Assembly (NCBI GenBank): GCA_020216925.1
Contig: JAIWOL010000009.1
Coordinates: 1-12,940, forward strand
Reading direction: 5' to 3'
From: Thiobacillus sp.
GTDB taxonomy: Bacteria > Pseudomonadota > Gammaproteobacteria > Burkholderiales > Thiobacillaceae
Length of the DNA stretch: 12,940 nt
The position numbers were made by a program, and so were the translations under genes. The notes beneath the pieces were generated by a model. It was not told the DNA's origin. It searched no databases and saw only the letters and a list, made by a program, of their open reading frames with translations. Positions within the stretch are counted from its first letter, which is position 1; every line of letters begins with the position of its first letter. Shown one piece after another: positions 891 through 12,940 of the stretch.

Positions 891-943
891 AGTCGGCCTG
901 CCGCCGGATTCCCGTCCTGTCGATTCGTTCCGTTCTTTGCACG

Positions 944-2311
944 ATGCTCCACATCTTCAATACCCTCAGCCGCGCCAAGGAAACCTTTGTCCCGTTGCAG
1001 CCTGGCCGTGTGCGCATGTATGTCTGCGGCATGACGGTTTACGACCTGTGTCACCTTGGGCACGCGCGGGTGTTTGTCGTGTTCGACATGGTGACACGAT
1101 GGCTGCGCGCCAGCGGTTATCAGGTCGAGTACGTCAGGAATATTACGGACATCGACGACAAGATCATCAGGCGGGCCGCCGAAAACGGCGAATCGCCGGC
1201 CGCGCTGAGCGAACGCTTCATCGCCGAAATGCATGCCGACGAACGCGCGCTGGGGGTGCTGCCGCCAGACCACGAGCCGCGCGCCACACAATACGTAGCG
1301 CAGATGCTGGCCCTGATCGGCATGCTGGAGAAGAACGGACTGGCGTATCCGGCCCCCAACGGTGACGTGTATTACAGCGTGCGCCGCTTCGAGTCCTACG
1401 GCCGCCTGTCCGGCAAGAGCCTGGATGAATTGCGTGCGGGCGAGCGCGTCGAGGTCGATCCCAACAAGCGCGACCCCATGGATTTCGTGTTGTGGAAGGC
1501 GGCCAAGCCCGGCGAGCCGTCCTGGGAATCGCCTTGGGGGCCGGGGCGGCCGGGCTGGCACATCGAGTGCTCGGCGATGAGCGCTGAGCTGCTGGGCCGG
1601 CGGTTCGACATCCACGGCGGCGGCCAGGACTTGCAGTTTCCGCATCACGAGAACGAGATCGCGCAATCCGAGGGCGCGCATGGCTGCACCTTCGTCAATT
1701 ACTGGATGCACAACGGTTTCGTGCGGGTGGACAACGAGAAGATGTCAAAATCGCTCGGCAACTTTTTCACCATCCGCGAAGTGCTGCACAAGTACGACGC
1801 TGAAGTCGTGCGTTTTTTCATCCTGCGGGCGCATTACCGCAGTCCCCTGAATTATTCCGACGCGCATCTGGACGACGCGCGCGGGGCGCTCACCCGCCTG
1901 TATACGGCACTGAAGGACGTTGCCGGGACAGCTGGGCCAGTCGACTGGACGCATCCCGCCGCGGCGCGCTTCAAGGCGGCGATGGACGATGACTTCAACA
2001 CGCCCGAAGCCCTGGCCGTGCTGTTCGACCTGGCGGGCGAGGCCAACCGGGGCGATACCGCTGCGGCCGGACAGTTGCGTGCGCTGGGCGGCGTGCTGGG
2101 CCTGCTGCAACGCCCGGCTGACGGCTTTCTCAAGGCGGGCGCAGGCGAGGACGGCATGGAGGAAGCCGAAATCGAAGCCCTCATCGCCGCCCGGCTGGCG
2201 GCCCGTCAGGCGAGAAATTTTGCCGAATCGGACCGCATCCGCGATGTACTCAAAGCTGCGGGCATCGTGCTCGAAGACGGTGCGGCCGGCACCACCTGGC
2301 GGCGCAGCTGA
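944..2311 (+). CDS. cysS: Cysteinyl-tRNA synthetase
   Basis: This cytoplasmic class I aminoacyl-tRNA synthetase charges tRNA-Cys with cysteine using ATP. The 455 residues match the usual length (about 460). The start [17 protein letters not shown] is typical of the family. The HIGH signature appears as HLGH (37-40) and the second ATP motif as KMSKS (266-270). The zinc site that recognises the cysteine thiol is present: C28 in [10 protein letters not shown]209 in HIECSAM, H234 in HHENE, and E238. The C-terminal part carries the helical and anticodon-recognition regions and ends [15 protein letters not shown]...TTWRR, as usual. No clear Shine-Dalgarno sequence precedes the ATG. The gene appears monocistronic: divergent from the TPR gene and closed by a strong hairpin terminator. 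Confidence 0.98.
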
Positions 2312-2324
2312 AAGACGGTTTCCC

Positions 2325-2371
2325 CCGGCAAACAGAAAAGGGACGCCAAGCGTCCCTTTTCTGTTTGCCGG
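2325..2371. terminator. Bidirectional intrinsic terminator between convergent genes
   Basis: This is a perfect inverted repeat: the left arm at 2325-2346 and the right arm at 2350-2371 pair over 22 bases with a CAA loop. The stem contains an A-run on one side (AGAAAAGGGACGC) and the matching T-run (GCGTCCCTTTTCT), so it can stop transcription from either strand. It lies 13 bases after the cysS stop and 12 bases from the stop of the convergent methionine-rich gene. Confidence 0.93.
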
Positions 2372-2383
2372 CGCGGCCGGAAA

Positions 2384-3223
2384 TTACTTGGCAGCGGGAG
2401 CAGCCGGTGCGGCAGCCGGCTGCGCGTAGGCGGCGGGGTTCCACATGTTCATCCAGGCATTCGGATCAAAGAAATTAAACGTGCCGGTTGCGGCCTGGGC
2501 GGTGTCCGCGGAGGGCTGGGGCGTCATGCCCGTCCAGGCGCCCGGGTTGAAGAAATTGAAGCTCGCCGGCGCGGCCGCGTTGGCGGTTCCGGTTGCCGGG
2601 GCCATCCAGCTGCCCCAGGCGCCGTAAGTGGCGGGGTTCATCGATGCACCCATCCAGTTGGCATAGAGCGCAGGATTCATCGGCGCCATCATCAACTGCA
2701 TCATGCGCGGATCCATGGGGGCCATCATCCACTTGGTGTAGAGATTGGGATTCATGGACTGCATCATCATGTTCCACGTATTGGGGTCCATGGGCATCAT
2801 CATCCAGCGCATCATCTTGCCGGGGTCGGCAAACTGGGTCATGAGCGCGGTATAGAAGTTGGGGTCCATGGAAGCCCCCATCCACTTCATGTACACGTTG
2901 GGATCGCTGAACTGCATCATGTTACCCATGGCGCGAGGATCCATCATGCTGCCCATCATGCGGGCCCAATTGCCCGGATCCATCATGTTCACGCCCATCT
3001 GCGTGTAGAAGCCGGGTTCGGTCACGGCGTTGGCCCAGGGCACGAACATCTTGGGGTCGCGGTAGGCCGAGCCGTTGCGGGTGAAATCGGTCATGCGTTC
3101 CAGCCATTGCGCGCTGGTTTGCGGCGTTGCCGCGGGTTCGGGGGCGGCAGGCGCGTTACCGCTGGCAAGGGCAGCCGAACTGCCGATGAGGCCGAGTGCC
3201 ATAACGAGGATTTGAACTTTCAT
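2384..3223 (-). CDS. Secreted methionine-rich tandem-repeat protein, function unknown
   Basis: The product has 279 residues. Residues 1-20 are a clear signal peptide (MKVQILVMALGLIGSSAALA). After a Pro/Ala stretch, residues about 56-207 are tandem 12-13-residue units anchored on D/N-P, for example SMDPNFYTALMTQ, PMDPNTWNMMMQ and SMNPNLYTKWMMA, with aromatic and Met positions recurring. I count 40 methionines after the signal peptide. Two near-copies of F-N-F-F-[ND]-P-x-A-W follow (222-230 and 249-257), and the end is Ala/Pro-rich. There are no cysteines. The ATG at 3223 is chosen because AAGGAG (3229-3234) lies 5 bases upstream; an upstream in-frame ATG at 3256 would spoil the signal peptide. 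I do not recognise the family. Methionine clusters in exported proteins can bind Cu(I) or absorb oxidants, but that is only a hypothesis here. The gene stands alone with its own strong promoter. Confidence 0.9.
   Translation of the reverse strand: MKVQILVMALGLIGSSAALASGNAPAAPEPAATPQTSAQWLERMTDFTRNGSAYRDPKMFVPWANAVTEPGFYTQMGVNMMDPGNWARMMGSMMDPRAMGNMMQFSDPNVYMKWMGASMDPNFYTALMTQFADPGKMMRWMMMPMDPNTWNMMMQSMNPNLYTKWMMAPMDPRMMQLMMAPMNPALYANWMGASMNPATYGAWGSWMAPATGTANAAAPASFNFFNPGAWTGMTPQPSADTAQAATGTFNFFDPNAWMNMWNPAAYAQPAAAPAAPAAK
2603..3058 (-). repeat. Tandem 36-39-base coding repeats (D/N-P-x-x-[YWM] units)
   Basis: About twelve degenerate in-frame units of 12 or 13 codons lie within the methionine-rich gene. 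Successive D-P, E-P or N-P anchors in the protein are at residues 56, 69, 82, 95, 107, 120, 133, 146, 158, 171, 183 and 196, giving steps of 12 or 13. The units are diverged at the DNA level, so the array is old rather than a recent slippage expansion. Confidence 0.85.
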
Positions 3224-3251
3224 GTCGACTCCTTGTGCGGGTGGATAAAAC

Positions 3252-3275
3252 GACAACTAAAAAGATAATGTTGTC
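3252..3275. promoter_or_regulatory. Dyad GACAAC-N12-GTTGTC at the start of the leader
   Basis: Six-base inverted arms (3252-3257 and 3270-3275) with a 12-base A/T-rich spacer lie directly at and after the predicted transcription start of the methionine-rich gene. Such a site could be an operator for a dimeric repressor or a weak leader hairpin. With short arms it could also be chance. Confidence 0.3.
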
Positions 3276-3277
3276 TA

Positions 3278-3306
3278 ATTATTGCGTTTATGGGGCATAT
3301 TGTCAA
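3278..3306 (-). promoter_or_regulatory. Sigma70-type promoter of the methionine-rich gene
   Basis: On the minus strand there is a perfect -35 box TTGACA (3301-3306), a 17-base spacer, and AATAAT (3278-3283) as the -10 box, five of six matches to TATAAT. The start of transcription would be near 3271, giving a leader of about 48 bases before the AAGGAG and ATG. The surrounding DNA is markedly A/T-richer than the rest of the window. Confidence 0.7.
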
Positions 3307-3350
3307 TGGCTGATATTCCCCCGTGATGTCAGTCCGGCCATAATCCACTC

Positions 3351-3803
3351 ATGGCATCGACTGACTTTTTATATCTGGGCGCGCAGGACTGGCGGCATCC
3401 CGAATGGCGGGGCGGGTTTTATCCGGACGATTTGCCAGACGACTGGTTGTTGTCTTATTACAACAGCTACTTCCAGTCGGTCTACCTGACGTTGGAACAG
3501 GCGGCAGCCGCGACGCCGGCGGACTGGGAGACCTGGCTGGCGGACACGCTGGAACGCTTTGTTTTTCTTGTGGAATTCGACACCGGCCTTGCATTGCCCG
3601 CTTCGCCGAAAATCAGGCGGGTGCAGCCGGACTGGGCCGTGTCGCACGTCTGCTGGCTGGATGCGGCGCTTGACCTGCGGGCCTTGTCGCGGCGCATCGC
3701 CACCCACGCCGCCACGGGCCAGGCGCTATTCATCCTGAGCCGCGCCGCTGATTTGACGGCTTTGCACCGGGTGGGCGAACTGCGTCAGGTCATGGGTTAC
3801 TGA
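3351..3803 (+). CDS. Short DUF72-like protein
   Basis: The product has 150 residues, with no signal peptide or membrane segment. The N-terminus LYLGAQDWRHPEWRGGFYPDD, followed by LPDDWLLSYYNSYF, closely follows the opening of DUF72 (YecE-like) proteins, which begin with a GxxxWxxPxWxGxFYPxxLPxxxxLxYYxxxF pattern. Full DUF72 proteins are roughly 240-300 residues, so this is about half size. The remaining part (W129... of other family members) is not recognisable, and the C-terminal half looks like a separate alpha/beta segment ending RVGELRQVMGY. The family's biochemical role is not established. No Shine-Dalgarno sequence is evident before the ATG. The gene ends 84 bases before mlaF and could be transcribed with it, but nothing shows a functional link. 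Confidence 0.75.
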   Translation: MASTDFLYLGAQDWRHPEWRGGFYPDDLPDDWLLSYYNSYFQSVYLTLEQAAAATPADWETWLADTLERFVFLVEFDTGLALPASPKIRRVQPDWAVSHVCWLDAALDLRALSRRIATHAATGQALFILSRAADLTALHRVGELRQVMGY

Positions 3804-3887
3804 TGCCGGGTGCGCACGCAGTAAGCCCGGAAACGCCGCCGCCTCCGGTAAGATGATGCAACCGAACAACAAGACAGGTCCGATCCC

Positions 3888-4700
3888 GTGCAATCCGACA
3901 ATCTGGTCGAAATCGCAGGCGTCGCATTTGGCTACGGTGCCCGGCCGGTTCTCAAGGGCATCAATCTGACCGCCCGCCGCGGTCAGGTCGTGGCCATCAT
4001 GGGCAGTAGCGGTTGCGGCAAAACCACACTTTTGCGCCTGATCGGCGGGCAGATCAAACCTGGCCAGGGGACCGTGCGCGTGGCGGGTGAGTCGGTCGCC
4101 GATCTCGACCAGGACGGGCTTTATCGTCTGCGCCGGAAAATGGGCATGTTGTTCCAGTTTGGCGCCCTGTTCACCGATATGTCGGTGTTCGACAACGTGG
4201 CTTTCCAGTTGCGCGAGCACACCGACCTGCCCGAGGATGCGATCCGCGATCTGGTCCTGATGAAGCTCAACGCCGTGGGGCTGCGCGGCGCGGCGCACCT
4301 GATGCCGGCTGAACTTTCCGGCGGGATGGCGCGCCGGGTGGCGCTGGCGCGCGCTATTGCGCTCGATCCCATGCTGGTGATGTACGACGAACCCTTCGCC
4401 GGCCTGGATCCGATCTCGCTGGGCGTGACCGGCAACCTGATACGCCGCCTCACCGACACGCTGGGCCTGACGTCGCTCTTGGTGACGCACGACGTGCAGG
4501 AATCGCTGAAGATCGTCGATTACGTGTATTTCGTCTCCGAGGGCGTGATCGTGGCGGAAGGTACCGCCGACGCAATCCGGGCGTCCGAACTGCCCTATGT
4601 GCATCAGTTCGTGCATGGCGAGGCCGACGGCCCCGTGCCGTTCCATTACCCGGCGCGCGCCTACGCAGACGACCTGGGGCTGGGGGGGCGCGATGCTTAA
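3888..4700 (+). CDS. mlaF: Mla phospholipid transport ATPase MlaF
   Basis: This is the ATPase of the inner-membrane MlaFEDB complex, which moves phospholipids between inner and outer membrane and helps keep the outer leaflet free of them. It has 270 residues. Visible motifs are Walker [10 protein letters not shown] (39-47), Q-loop Q90 in MLFQFGALF, signature LSGGM (143-147), Walker B LVMYDE (163-168) followed by PFAGLDP, and the switch histidine H201. The [16 protein letters not shown] segment is typical of the MlaF/Ttg2A branch. The start is GTG at 3888: no ATG lies upstream in frame before the stop at 3849, and AGG sits 10 bases upstream. It overlaps mlaE by 8 bases and opens the long operon. 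I see no convincing promoter in 3804-3887. Confidence 0.95.
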
Positions 4701-5481
4701 GCGCGCGCTCGAAAACCTGGGCAACCGCACGATCCAGGGCGTGTGGCGCATGGGCTTTGCCACCCGCTTCCTGCTTGCCGTTTTGATGCATTCCGGCACG
4801 GCTTTCCGGCGGTTCGGCCTCACCATCCGCGAGATGTATTTCACGGGTGTGCTCTCGCTCATTATCATTCTGGTGTCTGGGCTGTTCGTGGGCATGGTGC
4901 TGGGCCTGCAAGGTTACGAAACGCTCCAGACCTACGGCTCGGAAGAGGCCCTGGGCATACTGGTGGCCCTCTCGCTGGTGCGAGAGCTGGGGCCGGTGGT
5001 GGCGGCGCTGCTGTTCGCCAGCCGCGCCGGCAGTGCGATCACGGCGGAAATCGGCCTGATGAAAGCCACCGAGCAGCTTTCGGCAATGGAAATGATGGCG
5101 GTCGATCCGATTGCGCGTGTGGTGGCCCCGCGTTTCTGGGCCGGCGTCATCTCGATGCCGCTTCTGGCGGCGCTGTTTTCCGCGATGGGCGTGCTTGGCG
5201 GCTACCTGGTGGGCGTGCAGCTCATCGGCGTGGACGAAGGTTCGTTCTGGGCGCAGATGCAAAGCGCGGTCGATTTCGAACAGGATGTTCTCAATGGCGT
5301 GATCAAGAGCGTCGTTTTCGGCGTGGCCATCACCGCCATCGCACTGTTCGAAGGGTACGATGCGCCGCCCACCGCCGAAGGGGTGTCGGGGGCCACGACC
5401 CGTACCGTTGTGACTTCCAGCCTGGCTGTGCTGGCGCTGGATTTTGTCTTGACCGCATTCATGTTCCGGGGACTCAACTAA
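4693..5481 (+). CDS. mlaE: Mla phospholipid transport permease MlaE
   Basis: This is the membrane subunit of the Mla ABC transporter, which pairs with MlaF and holds a ring of MlaD. It has 262 residues, the normal size. An N-terminal amphipathic stretch is followed by about five to six hydrophobic segments. The conserved family core is present at residues about 96-140: [20 protein letters not shown], then [16 protein letters not shown] and a following MAVDP motif. The ATG at 4693 lies inside the end of mlaF (8-base overlap), so translation is probably coupled. The stop at 5479-5481 directly abuts the mlaD ATG. Confidence 0.95.
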
Positions 5482-5949
5482 ATGAACCGAACCGTGCTCG
5501 ACCTCTGGGTCGGATTATTCGTCGTCGCGGGAATTGCCGCGCTGCTTTTTCTGGCGCTCAAGGTAGGCAGCATGAATACCGTCAACGCCAGCGACAGCTA
5601 TGAAGTCGTCGCCCGTTTCGAGAACATCGGCGGGCTCAAGGCGCGCGCGCCGGTGAAGAGCGCCGGGGTGGTAGTGGGGCGGGTCGACAGCATCCAGTTC
5701 GACACGCAATTCTATGAAGCCAAGGTGACGATGCGCATCGACAAGCGCTATCCTTTTCCCAAGGATACGTCTGCCGCCATTCTCACGTCGGGCCTGCTCG
5801 GCGAGCAATACATCGGTCTCGCGGCCGGCGGCGACAGCGTCATGCTCAAAAGTGGCGACACGCTGAAGATCACCCAGGATGCCGTGGTGCTGGAAAACCT
5901 CATCGGACAATTCCTCTACGGCAAGGCCCAGGAAGGAAGTACGCAATGA
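5482..5949 (+). CDS. mlaD: Mla substrate-binding MCE protein MlaD
   Basis: This inner-membrane-anchored MCE-domain protein forms a hexameric ring on MlaE and passes phospholipid to or from MlaC. It has 155 residues. One transmembrane helix lies at about 9-29 (WVGLFVVAGIAALLFLALKV), and the MCE domain at about 38-118 has the family signature ENIGGLKARAPVKSAGVVVG and GLLGEQYIGL. The C-terminal tail (VVLENLIGQFLYG) is short but contains the hydrophobic helix that lines the central pore in MlaD. It begins directly at the end of mlaE and overlaps the next gene by 4 bases (ATGA). Confidence 0.94.
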   Translation: MNRTVLDLWVGLFVVAGIAALLFLALKVGSMNTVNASDSYEVVARFENIGGLKARAPVKSAGVVVGRVDSIQFDTQFYEAKVTMRIDKRYPFPKDTSAAILTSGLLGEQYIGLAAGGDSVMLKSGDTLKITQDAVVLENLIGQFLYGKAQEGSTQ

Positions 5950-7310
5950 AACTGATCGTCCATTCCCTCATCGCCGCCGGTTGTCTGGCCTGCCTCTCCG
6001 TGCATGCCGAGAGCATCAACCTCAGCCAGGCCGTTGAAATGAGCCTGGCTGCCGATCCCCGTATCAAGGAACGCGAACAGGTGGTGGCTGCCGCCCGCGC
6101 GCTGGTACAGGAAGTGCGCGGCAACGCCGGCTGGCGTGTCAGCGCCAATGCTTTCGTCGGCCTGGCGCCCGAAGCCGCAGGCGGTTTCTACCAGGGCGGG
6201 GCATACAGTTGCGCCGTGCCGCCGTGTACGCCGCGCACCGACGGCGACAAGCTCAAGGGCATTTCGGACTGGACGCACATCGACTTTGCACTGATCAAGC
6301 CCTTGTTCACCTTCGGCAAGATCGAGCATTACAGCGATGCCGCGCAAGGCAATGCCGACGTGAAACAGGGCGAACTCAAACAGACACGCGCCGACATCGT
6401 CTACGACACCAAGCGCGCCTACTACGGCTATCTGGCTTCGCGCGACGCCTACACGTTCCTGCGCGATATCCAGGCGCGCCTCGACGACGCGATTGCCACG
6501 GTTGAGCGCAACCTCAAGGATGAAACCGGCGAATCGAAGCAGTCCGATCTCTACGCATTGCAAACCGCGCGCGGCTTGCTCGCCAAATACGTTTACCAGG
6601 CGCGGGCCATCGAAAAGATCAGCCTCGACGGCTTGCGGGTGCTGACCGGGGCGGGGCTAAAATCCGACCTGACTGTGGCCGATTCGCGCATCGAGCCGGT
6701 AGCCTTCCCGGTGGTGGAGCTGGCCGAACTCCAGGCCCGGGCGTTGCACGACCGCGCCGAAATGCAGCAGCTCGAATCCGGCCTGCGTGCGCGGCGCGCC
6801 TTGCTGGCCGCGAAGAAAGCGGATCGTCTGCCCGATGTCTACGCCGGGGTGATCGGCCAGTTCAACTACGCGTCGCGCCGCGAGCGGCTGGACAATCCCT
6901 ACCTCAACGACCCGTTCAATGGCGGTGGCCTGACGCCGGTCGTGGGCGTGAAATGGGACAGCGTGTTTGGCGTCGCCAACGCCCGGGTAGACCAGGCCCA
7001 GGCCGAACTCGAGGCGCTCAACCACAAGCGTGCCTTTGCCGTGGCTGGAATTCCGTTCGAGGTGAGCGAGGCCTACGCCAACGCGCAGGCCAACTTCGAT
7101 TCGCAGCGTGAACTGGCGGAAGCTGCGGCTGCCGCGCGACGCTGGATGGTTGCCTCGCTGGCGGATTTCACGGCAGGCGTGGAAAGCGCCGACAAGGTGG
7201 CCGACGCAATCAAGAACTACGCGCTGACCCAGACCGAATACCTGCGCACGCTCAACGACTACAACATGAACGTGGCGCAACTGGCTCGCCTGACGGGTGA
7301 ACTCAAGTAA
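5946..7310 (+). CDS. TolC-family outer-membrane protein inside the Mla operon
   Basis: The product has 454 residues. The signal peptide is residues 1-21 (cleavage after VHA). INLSQAVEMSLAADPRIK is the typical start of an OEP/TolC repeat, followed by a predicted beta region containing C89 and C94, then long helices (DIVYDTKRAYYGYLASRDAY; RDIQARLDDAIATVERNL). A second repeat follows from about 250 (AELQARALHDRAEMQQLESG), with a second strand region and GVKWDSVFGVANARVDQAQA. Known TolC proteins are trimeric outer-membrane channels. Its ATG overlaps the mlaD stop, so it is co-translated with Mla, in a place where mlaA (vacJ) might be expected. It may serve as the outer-membrane partner of Mla, or of the ABC-2 transporter encoded further downstream; neither is shown. 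LIAAGC resembles a weak lipobox. Confidence 0.88.
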   Translation: MKLIVHSLIAAGCLACLSVHAESINLSQAVEMSLAADPRIKEREQVVAAARALVQEVRGNAGWRVSANAFVGLAPEAAGGFYQGGAYSCAVPPCTPRTDGDKLKGISDWTHIDFALIKPLFTFGKIEHYSDAAQGNADVKQGELKQTRADIVYDTKRAYYGYLASRDAYTFLRDIQARLDDAIATVERNLKDETGESKQSDLYALQTARGLLAKYVYQARAIEKISLDGLRVLTGAGLKSDLTVADSRIEPVAFPVVELAELQARALHDRAEMQQLESGLRARRALLAAKKADRLPDVYAGVIGQFNYASRRERLDNPYLNDPFNGGGLTPVVGVKWDSVFGVANARVDQAQAELEALNHKRAFAVAGIPFEVSEAYANAQANFDSQRELAEAAAAARRWMVASLADFTAGVESADKVADAIKNYALTQTEYLRTLNDYNMNVAQLARLTGELK

Positions 7311-7355
7311 GCCAGCCGCGTCTACCCCATTTGAATACTTGAACAGGACTCTCCC

Positions 7356-7994
7356 ATGCTGCGTTTATTCCTGACGACTCTTGCCCTGCTGCTGGGCAGC
7401 GCGATTGCCAACGTGCGCGCCGCCGACATGGCCCCGGACGTGCTGGCGCGCACCACGACCCAGGACGTGATTGCCTTGCTCAAGCAGGACAAGGACATCC
7501 AGAACGGCAACCTCAACAAGGTTTATCAACTGGTCGAAGCCAAGATCCTGCCCAATTTCGATTTCAACCGCATGACCCAGCTCGCCGTGGGCAAGAACTG
7601 GCCGCGTGCCACCGCCCAGCAGAAACAGGCTCTGGTGACCGAATTCCGCAACCTGCTGGTGCGCACCTATGCCACATCGCTGACAGCGTTTTCCAATCAA
7701 AGCATCGATTTCAAGCCGCTGGTCATGAAGCCGGACGACGACGACGTGACCGTGCGCAGCGAGATCCGCCAGCCGGGCGGGCAGCCGCTGCCGATCGATT
7801 ACAGCATGTACAAGACCGCATTTGGCTGGAAGGTCTACGACGTGTCGATCGACGGCGTGAGTCTGGTCACCAACTATCGCGCGTCCTTTGCCTCTGCGAT
7901 CCGTCAGGGGGGCATCGACGGCCTCATCAAGACCCTGGCGGCGCAGTCGGCCAGGGCCGGCGCGCAAGCCGTGCCTGCGCGCAGCGGATCGTGA
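7356..7994 (+). CDS. mlaC: Periplasmic phospholipid shuttle MlaC
   Basis: MlaC (Ttg2D family) is a soluble periplasmic protein that carries a phospholipid between the outer-membrane partner and MlaD. It has 212 residues. The signal peptide is residues 1-22 (cleavage after VRA). Family features are ILPNFDFNRMTQLAVGKNWP, then ATAQQKQALVTEFRNLLVRT, and near the end GWKVYDVSIDGVSLVTNYR. AGGA lies 7 bases before the ATG. The 45-base gap after the TolC-like gene is the longest between functional genes in the Mla part of the operon. The stop overlaps the mlaB GTG (GTGA). Confidence 0.95.
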   Translation: MLRLFLTTLALLLGSAIANVRAADMAPDVLARTTTQDVIALLKQDKDIQNGNLNKVYQLVEAKILPNFDFNRMTQLAVGKNWPRATAQQKQALVTEFRNLLVRTYATSLTAFSNQSIDFKPLVMKPDDDDVTVRSEIRQPGGQPLPIDYSMYKTAFGWKVYDVSIDGVSLVTNYRASFASAIRQGGIDGLIKTLAAQSARAGAQAVPARSGS

Positions 7995-8260
7995 TCGCCT
8001 GCGACCAGTCGGTCTGCCGGTTCAGCGGACCACTGACCGTCGATACCGTGGGCAGCGAACTCGCGGCGCTGCGCCCCCATCTGGCCCGGGGCATCACCCG
8101 GCTGGATTTCAGCGGCGTCCACTCGGCAGATTCGGCTGCCCTGGCGCTGATATTCGGCGCGCAGCGCGCTGCCCGCGCCCCGCTCACCCTGAGCGGCCTG
8201 CCCGAGAGCTTTGTGACGCTGGCCGAACTGTACGGCGTATCCGATCTGCTGCCGGCATGA
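7991..8260 (+). CDS. mlaB: STAS-domain subunit MlaB
   Basis: This 89-residue cytoplasmic STAS protein matches the MlaB subunit that binds MlaF and stabilises the ABC complex. The core strand-helix motif is LDFSGVHSADSAALALIF (39-56). The residue after the conserved aspartate (S48) corresponds to the Ser/Thr position that is functionally important in STAS proteins. The GTG start overlaps the mlaC stop, and its own stop overlaps the next ATG, so it lies in a chain of translationally coupled genes. Divergence among small STAS proteins is high, so the name rests on both motif and position. Confidence 0.88.
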   Translation: MIACDQSVCRFSGPLTVDTVGSELAALRPHLARGITRLDFSGVHSADSAALALIFGAQRAARAPLTLSGLPESFVTLAELYGVSDLLPA

Positions 8261-9156
8261 CCCCGGCCATTCGGGTGGCCAACCTCGCCAAACGATTCGG
8301 CGGGACACAGGCGCTGGATGGCGTGTCGCTGGACATCGAACCCGGTGCATTCTTCGGCTTGCTGGGCCCGAACGGTGCCGGCAAGACCACGCTGATCTCC
8401 ATTCTGGCCGGACTTGCGCGGGCCGATGCAGGCGAAGCCTCGGTAATGGGCCACGACGTGGTGCGCGACTACCGCCAGGCGCGTCGCGCGCTTGGCGTGG
8501 TGCCGCAGGAACTGGTCTACGACCCGTTTTTCAACGTGCGCGAGACGCTCGTCATCCAGTCCGGTTATTTCGGCCTCAAACACAACGACGACTGGATCGA
8601 CGAGATCATGCACCACCTCGACCTGACGCCGCACGCGCACAAAAACACACAGGCACTGTCGGGCGGGATGAAACGCCGCCTGCTGGTGGCGCAGGCACTG
8701 GTGCACAAGCCGCCGGTGATCGTGCTCGACGAGCCCACAGCCGGAGTGGATGTCGATCTGCGGCGTTCGCTGTGGGCGTTTGTCAGCCGGCTCAACCGCG
8801 AAGGCCACACCATTCTGCTCACCACGCACTATCTGGAAGAGGCAGAAGCCCTGTGCGGGCGCATCGCCATGCTCAAGGCCGGTCGCATCGTTGCCTGCGA
8901 CACGACCCGCAATCTGCTGCAACACACCAATGAGCATTGCGCCAGTCTGCGCATCGACGCCGAAACGCTGCCGCCTGACTGGCAGGCGCGCATGCAGCGC
9001 GGCGCCGGCGGCAACTGGCGCTACAGTTTCGGCGACTACACCGAGCTCGAATCCCTGCTTGCCGCACTTCGCACCGCAGGCATACGGGTGCAGGAAATGC
9101 AGCTGCTGGAGCCCGATCTGGAGGATGTCTTCACCGACATCATGCAGCGCACATGA
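8257..9156 (+). CDS. ABC-2 type transporter ATP-binding protein (YadG-like)
   Basis: The product has 299 residues. Motifs are Walker A GPNGAGKTT (37-45), Q84 in VVPQELVYD, signature LSGGM (134-138), Walker B VIVLDE (154-159) followed by PTAGVD, and H191 in TTHYLEEAE. The C-terminal region (about 225-299) ends LLEPDLEDVFTDIM, as in ATPases of ABC-2 exporters. The start at 8257 is chosen because it overlaps the mlaB stop (ATGA) and begins right at the ATPase fold; the same frame is open further upstream, but only inside mlaC/mlaB. It pairs with the permease encoded directly after. The substrate is unknown; the context suggests an envelope lipid or glycan. Confidence 0.92.
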   Translation: MTPAIRVANLAKRFGGTQALDGVSLDIEPGAFFGLLGPNGAGKTTLISILAGLARADAGEASVMGHDVVRDYRQARRALGVVPQELVYDPFFNVRETLVIQSGYFGLKHNDDWIDEIMHHLDLTPHAHKNTQALSGGMKRRLLVAQALVHKPPVIVLDEPTAGVDVDLRRSLWAFVSRLNREGHTILLTTHYLEEAEALCGRIAMLKAGRIVACDTTRNLLQHTNEHCASLRIDAETLPPDWQARMQRGAGGNWRYSFGDYTELESLLAALRTAGIRVQEMQLLEPDLEDVFTDIMQRT

Positions 9157-9911: not shown

Positions 9912-11403
<1,492 letters not shown>

Positions 11404-11413
11404 GAACACTACC

Positions 11414-11516
11414 ATGCGTTATTCCGGCATCAAGCTGACGTGCTCCAAGGGTTGTGTCCTGGACCTGAATCTGCCGCTGGATTGCGCAACGAAAGGCATC
11501 GATCAATGCGTCTGAG
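11414..11516 (+). pseudogene. Truncated, diverged copy of the hisG 5' end
   Basis: A 33-codon ORF starts 10 bases after murA. Its start, MRYSGIKLTCSKGCVLDLNL, lines up with the start of hisG (12318), [20 protein letters not shown]. Over the first 25 codons, aligned without a gap, 13 residues agree, including Met1, the G-I pair, S-K-G and D-x-x-LPL. A one-residue gap then also brings A-x-K-G-I over A-A-G-I. Of the 13 agreeing codons, seven differ only synonymously, so both copies diverged as working genes before being brought together. The substrate-loop residues are lost (SKGC for SKGR) and the ORF stops inside mntA (11-base overlap). It may still be translated as a short, four-cysteine leader peptide. 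Confidence 0.75.
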
Positions 11517-11805
11517 CGAGAATCAGGCCCGCGCCATTACGCAGATCGCGCATGAAATCGCGGGAGAGCAGGCGCAGGTGCGGGTTTTTGGCTCACGGCT
11601 GAACGATGATGCGCGCGGGGGTGATCTCGACCTCCTGCTTGAATTGACTGAACCCGTGGTCAATCCTGCGCTACTGGCCGCAAGGTTCGCCGCCCGGGTC
11701 AGTCGCTTGATGCAGGGCCGCAGCGTAGACGTCCTGCTTGCCGGCCCCAACCTCAGGCGCCTGCCCATCCATGACATCGCCTTCAGGGAAGGGAGGGTGT
11801 TATGA
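11506..11805 (+). CDS. mntA: MntA-like nucleotidyltransferase antitoxin
   Basis: This 99-residue minimal nucleotidyltransferase has the pol-beta-type signature V-R-V-F-G-S (G29-S30), then nine residues, then D40-x-D42 in GGDLDLLLE. The third acidic residue is probably D75 in SVDVLL. In characterised MntA-HepT pairs this enzyme AMPylates a tyrosine in the HEPN toxin and silences it. The ATG at 11506 is chosen because MRLSENQARAI is a usual family start and GAAAGG lies 9 bases upstream (within the hisG relic); the longer in-frame ORF from 11440 only adds out-of-frame hisG-relic sequence. The gene overlaps the HEPN gene by ATGA. Confidence 0.85.
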   Translation: MRLSENQARAITQIAHEIAGEQAQVRVFGSRLNDDARGGDLDLLLELTEPVVNPALLAARFAARVSRLMQGRSVDVLLAGPNLRRLPIHDIAFREGRVL

Positions 11806-12281
11806 CGATTGATCCAAAGATGGCACTGCGGCTACAGTTCCTGGCACGCGTCGTGCGGAAAGAAAGTCAGCACCTCGCGGGCACGGACCAGCGTCTTTTT
11901 GTCGACCCCTTTACACCGGAACGCGCCGCCCAACTTGAAACCGATGCGGATCTTGCCGAGCGGGTAGAGGCCTTCGCAGGACGAATCGGGCGCCTGCAGG
12001 ACACCCTTGGCGACAAACTATTGCCTGGGCTTCTGGCCGCCTTGGGCGAATCGCCGGCCGCAGCCATCGATAACCTGGACCGGGCCGAACGGCTGGGGTG
12101 GATCCCTTCGGCGGACGAATGGATGACCCTGCGCAAGCTCAGGAACCAGATGGTGCATGAGTATGTGGAAGACATCGCGGTGCTCGCCAGTGCGTTGCAG
12201 ACGGCCCACGAGTTCGTGCCAATGCTCACCGACGCAGCGAACAAGCTGCTTGCGGAGATCGCGCGCCGCAACTGGGAATGA
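11802..12281 (+). CDS. hepT: HEPN-domain toxin, HepT-like
   Basis: This all-helical protein has 159 residues. The HEPN RNase signature lies near the C-terminal third: R114-N-Q-M-V-H119-E-Y121, an RX4HXY motif within LRKLRNQMVHEYVEDI. In HepT toxins R and H cut RNA and the tyrosine is the site AMPylated by MntA, so the full regulatory motif is kept. The rest (LETDADLAERVEAFAGRIGR; LQDTLGDKLLPGLLAALGE) is longer than in typical HepT and I cannot assign it to a named subfamily. A strong GGAGG (11792-11796) lies 5 bases before the ATG, inside the end of mntA, so translation is coupled. An antiphage or stress role is known for the family and inferred here. Confidence 0.82.
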   Translation: MTIDPKMALRLQFLARVVRKESQHLAGTDQRLFVDPFTPERAAQLETDADLAERVEAFAGRIGRLQDTLGDKLLPGLLAALGESPAAAIDNLDRAERLGWIPSADEWMTLRKLRNQMVHEYVEDIAVLASALQTAHEFVPMLTDAANKLLAEIARRNWE

Positions 12282-12317
12282 ACAGCCGATGAACCCTGGC
12301 ATCCGATACAAACCGAC

Positions 12318-12940
12318 ATGACCTACACCGGAATCACCCTCGCCCTTTCAAAAGGGCGCATCTTCGACGAAACCCTGCCGCTGCTGGCTGCCGCCGGCAT
12401 CGTGCCGGCCGAAAACCCCGAGTCCTCGCGCAAGCTCATCATCGGCAGCAACCGCGCCGACGTGCGGTTCATCATCGTGCGCGCGAGCGACGTGCCGACC
12501 TACGTGCAATACGGCGCCGCCGACCTCGGCATCGCCGGCAAGGACGTGTTGAACGAACACGGCGGCAACGGCCTGTATCAGCCGCTCGACCTGCGCATTG
12601 CCTGCTGCCGCATGATGGTTGCCGTGCGCGAAGGCTACGATTACGCCGGCACCGTCAGGCAGGGCGCGCGCATCCGCGTCGCCACCAAATACGTCAACGC
12701 CGCGCGCGAACACTTCGCCAGCAAAGGCGTGCACATCGACCTCATCAAGCTCTACGGCTCGATGGAACTTGCCCCGCTGGTCGGCCTGTCCGACGTCATC
12801 GTCGATCTCGTTTCCACCGGCGGCACGCTCAAGGCCAACGGCCTGGTGGCGGTGGAACACATCAGCGACATCAGCTCGCGGCTGGTGGTGAACCAGGCTG
12901 CGCTCAAGCTCAAGCGCGGGTTGATCCAGCCGGTGATTGA
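12318..12940 (+). CDS. hisG: ATP phosphoribosyltransferase, short form (3' end off the window)
   Basis: HisG catalyses the first step of histidine synthesis, joining ATP and PRPP. 207 codons are visible before the right edge. The catalytic domain is clear: [18 protein letters not shown] (6-23), [47 protein letters not shown] and the PRPP-binding [11 protein letters not shown]. The sequence is nearly at the end expected for the short form (about 205-220 residues), which lacks the regulatory domain and works with HisZ; the end itself is not visible. The ATG is preceded by a 36-base gap after hepT with no clear Shine-Dalgarno sequence. A diverged partial copy of its first codons lies upstream at 11414. 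Confidence 0.95.

Follow-up and report, generated by a model that had tools for sequence, protein, structure and literature searches.

Our comparison suggests that a toxin-antitoxin-like gene pair, a fossil of the hisG start and a new hisG start arrived together from another lineage between murA and hisG of a Thiobacillus genome, and that this site has been entered repeatedly by such pairs. The window, which is the whole stretch of 12,940 nucleotides that was analysed, corresponds to contig C171 of genome G000 (source assembly 2.04 Mb, 85% complete). At its end the genes are arranged in the order murA, a 33-codon ORF, mntA, hepT, a 36-nt leader and hisG. The relic is shared with another lineage, the trees of murA and of the gene pair are in conflict, and the two hisG copies differ in their start types. 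For the comparison, 56 genomes of the genus were considered; the 46 with a hisG match, including the window genome, were retained and the ten others were dropped.

The hisG relic downstream of murA

The ORF directly after murA (11414..11516, plus strand) translates as MRYSGIKLTCSKGCVLDLNLPLDCATKGIDQCV. The original prediction described it as a remnant of the hisG start, and this description was upheld. Of its first 25 residues, 13 are identical to those of hisG, and seven of the 13 agreeing codons differ synonymously between the relic and the intact gene (both counted by eye on the printed sequence). A DNA profile was built from the first 99 nt of hisG of the 46 genomes; it took in the hisG starts of G019, G033 and G000, while the relics of these three genomes were left out. 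When the window was searched with this profile, hisG itself was returned with an E-value of 3.2e-27 and the relic as second match (11418-11503, E 8.8e-6), followed by the next match at E 0.042.

The same search was extended to the DNA upstream of hisG, covering 209,694 bases on both strands. These belonged to 72 of 81 regions, namely 80 fetched regions and the window, from which the nine without murA were omitted. Only three matches were obtained at E < 0.01, in G019 (1.9e-12), G033 (9.2e-6) and G000 (1.4e-4). All three begin directly after murA, and the next match had an E-value of 0.38. Relics are therefore present at three of the 46 murA-hisG junctions of the genus, each to the left of the same mntA-hepT-like pair. 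The relic recurs in separate assemblies (G033 and G019) and is therefore not an artefact of a single one.

The position of the relic also agrees with the place where hisG begins in relatives without the pair. The hisG start lies at most 15 nt past the murA stop in 23 of the 46 genomes, at 8-15 nt in 19 of them and at 1 nt in four, in which this spacing is the position of the hisG ATG in the printed sequences. A long gap of 95-313 nt separates the two genes in 14 genomes, and in the remaining nine the gap contains genes. An ORF like that of the window was looked for in pair-less relatives, and none was found among the 37 genomes whose junction holds no inserted genes; no profile match below E 0.01 was obtained in any of them.

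The G033 relic is better preserved than that of the window. Over 33 codons, the relics of G000 and G033 differ by 13 non-synonymous and 2 synonymous changes, in comparison to 2 non-synonymous and 8 synonymous differences between their hisG genes over codons 1-33. The constraint on the protein has therefore been lost, with the reading frame still open. On the evidence of sequence, the 33-codon ORF is a fossil of the hisG head. The shortness of the ORF could speak for a fortuitous resemblance or for a small gene of other origin, but the E-values, the position, the counterpart in G033 and the lack of such an ORF in the 37 pair-less genomes make this explanation hardly credible.

A further hisG-like piece in G006 was weak, with E-values of 0.019 and 0.6 in two profile searches, and was not counted as a relic; it may represent intergenic repeat DNA. 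A repeat TCATTGCGAGCAACGCGAAGCAATCC, with variations, is located directly after murA in the murA-hisG gaps of G002, G006, G035, G114, G122 and G129.

Start types and mosaic ancestry

The intact hisG of the window (12318..12938, plus strand; PF01634 E 1.2e-51) runs off the contig end and has the start type GGA/MTYTG, with GGA as codon of Gly5. This codon is present in the intact hisG of eight of the nine insert carriers, in three of the 14 long-gap genomes and in none of the 23 short-gap genomes (insert versus short gap, Fisher 8.6e-7). The three relics of G000, G033 and G019 carry GGC at Gly5. The relics of the window and G033 begin 9-10 nt after murA, at the place of the hisG start in short-gap genomes, and score best against members of this group (G117, G030 and G015). 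The relic of G019 begins with MGI and is devoid of codons 2-4, a form which among the 46 genomes is found only in G118 and G032. With its upstream context included, it obtained the best scores against the same two genomes, and murA of G019 groups with murA of G032 (96/95). A tandem duplication of about 20 bp near the murA end in L125 (G019:C89, about 510-560) shifts the frame and is either real or an assembly error. The interior codons of the relics separate neither short-gap from long-gap hisG nor the lineage of G019 from other short-gap genomes; because they are not clearly nearer to one group, the assignment to lineages rests on position, start form and murA.

The assumption that the relic and the intact gene have different histories was supported for the window, as the hisG starts of 38 of the 45 other genomes are nearer to its relic than its own hisG. 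For the G019 relic the same applies to 43 of 45 genomes. The G033 relic is slightly closer to others, with 8 of 45 hisG starts nearer than its own. Within the window, the relic and the start of hisG are identical in 39 of 66 nt. The hisG leader (12282..12317, plus strand) weakly resembles the leaders of long-gap genomes, with a profile E-value of 2.7 at the expected place.

The left part of the window is most similar to G115. Positions 941-9150 are mostly 86-87% identical to this genome, and the other matches listed reach at most 80% over 2 kb or at most 83% over shorter stretches. The murA gene (10150..11403, plus strand; Pfam PF00275 E 3.9e-118) appears to be resident. It is sister to murA of G115 (100/85), with a nucleotide identity of 88-90% to G115 and 81-83% to G033. 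In G115, hisG begins 1 nt after murA with the start MNTGI, and neither relic nor pair is present at the junction. In G121, which ranks next to G115 in similarity to the left part, the contig ends before murA. On the minus strand at 2380-3222, the window encodes a secreted-looking protein with many Met/Asn/Pro/Trp-rich repeats, as read by eye.

In the segment between murA and hisG, nucleotide identities to G033 are 81% over 100 nt of the relic, 92% for mntA, 91% for hepT and 97% over the 36 nt of the leader. The hisG of the window is 91% identical to that of G033, a value also reached by G002, G006, G035 and G114 and, over a shorter stretch, by G123; its identity to hisG of G115 is 85%. Tree tests of murA and hisG were run with IQ-TREE, that of murA on the 42 of 46 genomes with a full-length gene. 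The murA data reject a group of G000 and G033 (dlnL 225, AU p 1.5e-5), whereas the tree of the pair joins these two genomes at 100/100 and three other groupings that were tried were rejected (AU p < 1e-33). The predicted difference in phylogeny between murA and a part of the adjoining segment was thus recovered. Taken by itself, the mosaic hisG tree does not allow vertical descent to be rejected (AU p 0.25-0.52).

Sites that discriminate between G115 and G033 were used to locate the border. In murA up to position 11175, 129 of these sites are G115-like and 44 are G033-like; over its final 228 nt the signal is mixed, with 10 G115-like and 7 G033-like sites; and in hisG, 54 sites are G033-like and 17 are G115-like. 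These sites and the absence of the relic from G115 point to 11190..11413 as the probable zone of the left recombination breakpoint, a border which is loose because the two kinds of site are intermingled at the end of murA. For the window genome, the claim that a resident hisG left its 5' end behind finds no support in the sister G115, in which both relic and pair are missing. The alternative offered in the original prediction, namely that the relic entered with the module, is in better agreement with the data: for relic, pair and leader the nearest genome is G033, and murA is sister to G115. The absence of relic and pair from G115, together with the relic, pair and leader shared with G033, argues that the relic came with the block. 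Its import together with the pair into the window lineage is the most likely reading of these sequences.

The gene pair and the murA-hisG junction

The mntA-like gene (11506..11805, plus strand) codes for a putative minimal nucleotidyltransferase of 99 aa, the predicted antitoxin (PF01909 E 0.0021, 18.8 bits against a cut-off of 21; PADLOC PDC-S09 E 2.2e-5). In its motif, GSRLNDDARGGDLD, nine residues separate GS from DXD. This GSX9DXD form, and not GSX10DXD, was found in the window and in 78 of 79 scored related loci; in the match of the 79th locus no motif of the GSX9DXD type was found. Because the motif departs from GSX10DXD, the pair is called HEPN-MNT-like. In HepT/MntA (type VII) systems, the toxicity of the HEPN protein is neutralised through its adenylylation by the MNT protein. 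The hepT-like gene (11802..12281, plus strand) codes for a HEPN protein of 159 aa, a predicted RNase toxin. Its product conforms to the HEPN fold and contains the motif RX4HXY (RNQMVHEY in the window), which is present in 78 of 80 loci. Among 21 aligned HepT members, PF01934 was matched in all at E <= 0.1 (best 4.8e-4) and PF08780 in 19, and the window HepT lies below both Pfam cut-offs. A comparison with PDB sequences revealed no significant HEPN or MNT match, and NCBIfam returned nothing for mntA, hepT or the relic. The HepT/MntA toxin-antitoxin pair of Shewanella oneidensis, as described in the available part of its report, shares with the present pair the RX4HXY motif, the HEPN fold of the toxin and the neighbouring MNT gene (PMC7641770). 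In contrast to that pair, the pair of the window has GSX9DXD in place of GSX10DXD, and its predicted HepT falls below the Pfam cut-offs.

The murA-hisG junction is a hotspot, with toxin- or antitoxin-like genes in nine of the 46 genomes. The pair type of the window occupies it in G000, G033, G019, G034 and G006. A second HEPN-MNT type, whose HepT is about 43% identical, is located there in G114 and a third, with 29% identity, in G027, and Phd-like antitoxin ORFs were recognised by eye in G002 and G010. HepT-like matches in the genus amount to 13 places, with two G006 pieces taken as one, and seven of them lie at this junction. The pair at the junction is represented in the named records L031, L103, L032 and L033, which carry the titles Thiobacillus denitrificans, Thiobacillus sp., Hydrogenophilales and Proteobacteria, respectively. 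A profile search of the inserts of G114, G027, G002 and G010 detected no hisG relic below E 0.01. G034 possesses the pair and is devoid of the relic. Its mntA follows the murA stop as TGA-C-ATG, with its start in the exact hisG start place of the murA kin G113 and G115. A leader of about 15 nt before mntA (GGCATCNATCA) is common to G000, G033 and G006 and, more distantly, G019. The hepT gene of G006 looks broken by a frameshift, because its matches fall in two different frames (L112/L103), while mntA is open. On the other side of hisG in G006 (L112), two ORFs resembling a PIN-domain toxin and an antitoxin were seen by eye, which places hisG between two such systems.

Among the five carriers of the window pair type, four have an ORF that opens 3-10 nt past the murA stop and terminates at the same TGA inside mntA. 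In the window this stop (11514-11516) lies within mntA, as the latter starts at 11506. In the fifth carrier, G034, 1 nt separates the murA stop from the start of mntA itself. In G114, with its other pair type, the 45 nt after murA contain no start of such an ORF. Between 11250 and 12400, the plus strand gave no terminator-like site, and neither of the two strands gave a promoter-like one; a search of 11000-12940 against Rfam gave nothing at the gathering threshold. As the ORFs end inside mntA and terminator- and promoter-like sites were not detected, we infer that murA and mntA may be transcribed together and that the relic ORF may relay translation from one to the other. The relay ORF may also be due to chance, since the TGA belongs to the conserved start of mntA itself and an open frame in the right phase can arise by chance. 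A second fossil was noticed between murA and the different HEPN-MNT pair of G027 (L119, G027:C131:10900-16900), where an 82-codon ORF is located at 3562-3807 on the minus strand. The first 42 residues of this ORF match the tail of dTDP-4-dehydrorhamnose 3,5-epimerase (PF00908 E 4.2e-5, below the cut-off), and it overlaps mntA by 4 nt.

Origin of the arrangement and setting of hisG

On balance, we favour a sequence of events in which a donor block replaced the head of hisG, the whole unit later moved into the window lineage, and the fossil came to serve as relay for a HEPN-MNT-like pair. In the ancestor, hisG would have started about 10 nt after murA. A donor block consisting of mntA-hepT, a hisG leader and a hisG 5' end would have recombined into this ancestral hisG, with the right crossover inside hisG by homology and the left join near hisG codon 27-29, perhaps aided by the short shared stretch AGGCATC. 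This exchange would have left hisG complete, with the start and leader of the donor, and the former head would have ended up isolated before mntA. Later, relic, pair, leader and hisG would have been transferred by homologous recombination into the window lineage, the left crossover being placed close to the 3' end of murA. The pair would now be a predicted toxin-antitoxin system read from the murA transcript, in which the relic ORF would hand ribosomes that have reached the murA stop over to the start of mntA. The course and direction of the first event and an activity of the pair are likewise presumptive. The scenario of the original prediction, in which a block recombined into the resident hisG and left its 5' end behind, is not supported for the window genome; it fits G019, whose relic has the MGI start of its own lineage and whose murA groups with that of G032.

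An entry of the block into the hisG of the window lineage itself is unlikely. A relic would indeed be expected from such an event, as G019 illustrates, but hisG of G115 lies 1 nt after murA with the start MNTGI, and the window relic lies 10 nt after murA, begins with MRYSGI and is 81% identical to that of G033. Two separate events would then be required to produce relics, ends and leaders that match. A duplication of the hisG start in place, with the pair inserted afterwards between the copies, would need no donor hisG and would also result in a relic beside an intact copy. The nearness of other hisG starts to the relics of the window (38/45) and G019 (43/45), and the contrast between GGA in intact copies and GGC in relics, render it quite unlikely, although the case of G033 is less clear (8/45).

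A possible, if less convincing, explanation is a single capture followed by spread, in which the pair was fused once to a hisG fragment, this unit gave rise to all carriers and the left part of the relic was overwritten by resident hisG through homologous recombination. It would account for the shared mntA leader (GGCATCNATCA) and for the relics ending at about the same codon. However, the G019 relic looks like decayed hisG throughout, and no change in common with the other relics was noticed by eye, and the hisG-like piece of G006 is weak and may be an intergenic repeat. Site-specific integration of a mobile element into the hisG 5' end, in the manner of SXT at prfC, would have a similar outcome, namely a host gene that receives an insertion at its head and is still present. 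We consider it very improbable, given that no integrase ORF is located between murA and hisG, where only relic, mntA, hepT and leader were found, that the relic does not form a clean repeat with the hisG start (39 of 66 nt), and that the inserts of G114, G027, G002 and G010 contain no hisG relic below E 0.01.

The entry of toxin-antitoxin pairs without integrase into conserved chromosomal places has mostly been inferred from presence and absence. At the murA-hisG junction, scars are preserved, with three hisG fossils of two start forms to the left of the same pair within one genus. These fossils, the pair-less relatives and the mosaic border therefore make both the recombination route and the reuse of a fossil as leader testable. 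Under a wider and more tentative reading of head replacement, hisG heads would have been replaced at least twice at the murA-hisG junction of Thiobacillus (G033/G000 and G019). The pair would travel with a spare 5' end of its target gene, and the old head would be stranded before the antitoxin gene. In G034 the antitoxin start would occupy the exact hisG start place, and in G027 a tail of rmlC would be the relay for another pair type. Only tentatively do we propose that, as a general route, small toxin-antitoxin pairs settle beside core genes through head replacement without an integrase and recruit the frame of the fossil as a relay.

Related situations are known from other bacteria. In Thermus thermophilus HB8, an MNT-HEPN module is located in the lysine biosynthesis operon and is absent in strain HB27 (Makarova et al. 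2009, PMC2701414). As in the window, two genes lie beside a biosynthetic gene and are absent from close relatives; unlike the present case, the available portion of that account mentions no gene fossil, head replacement or repeated use of the site (PMC2701414). SXT/R391 elements integrate at the 5' end of prfC, and according to the accessible part of the source the gene is kept beside the element, a likeness to the insertion at hisG (PMC5122569). In contrast to these elements, the block described here comprises about 1 kb, is devoid of an integrase and of clean repeats, and seems to move by homologous recombination. In the open-access literature searched, we found no report of such a pair at murA-hisG, of a hisG fossil beside one or of a head replacement.

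The original prediction had placed the pair in an essential operon, a setting that was not recovered. In 43 of the 45 genus genomes with both genes, including that of the window, hisD is located on another contig than hisG; in the remaining two it lies on the same contig at distances of 0.19 and 0.34 Mb. A his-operon setting was therefore rejected: hisG stands alone beside a variable region and not with hisD. The genes downstream of hisG vary among the genomes, and by eye some of these ORFs resemble what we take to be asparagine synthases, flippases and sugar-nucleotide enzymes. An exchange of the variable region through its flanks would explain the movement of hisG-carrying blocks. In L115 (G033), the start of an IS30-like transposase is fused in frame to another coding stretch after hisG (3981-5869), and a flippase-like gene then follows, both recognised by eye.
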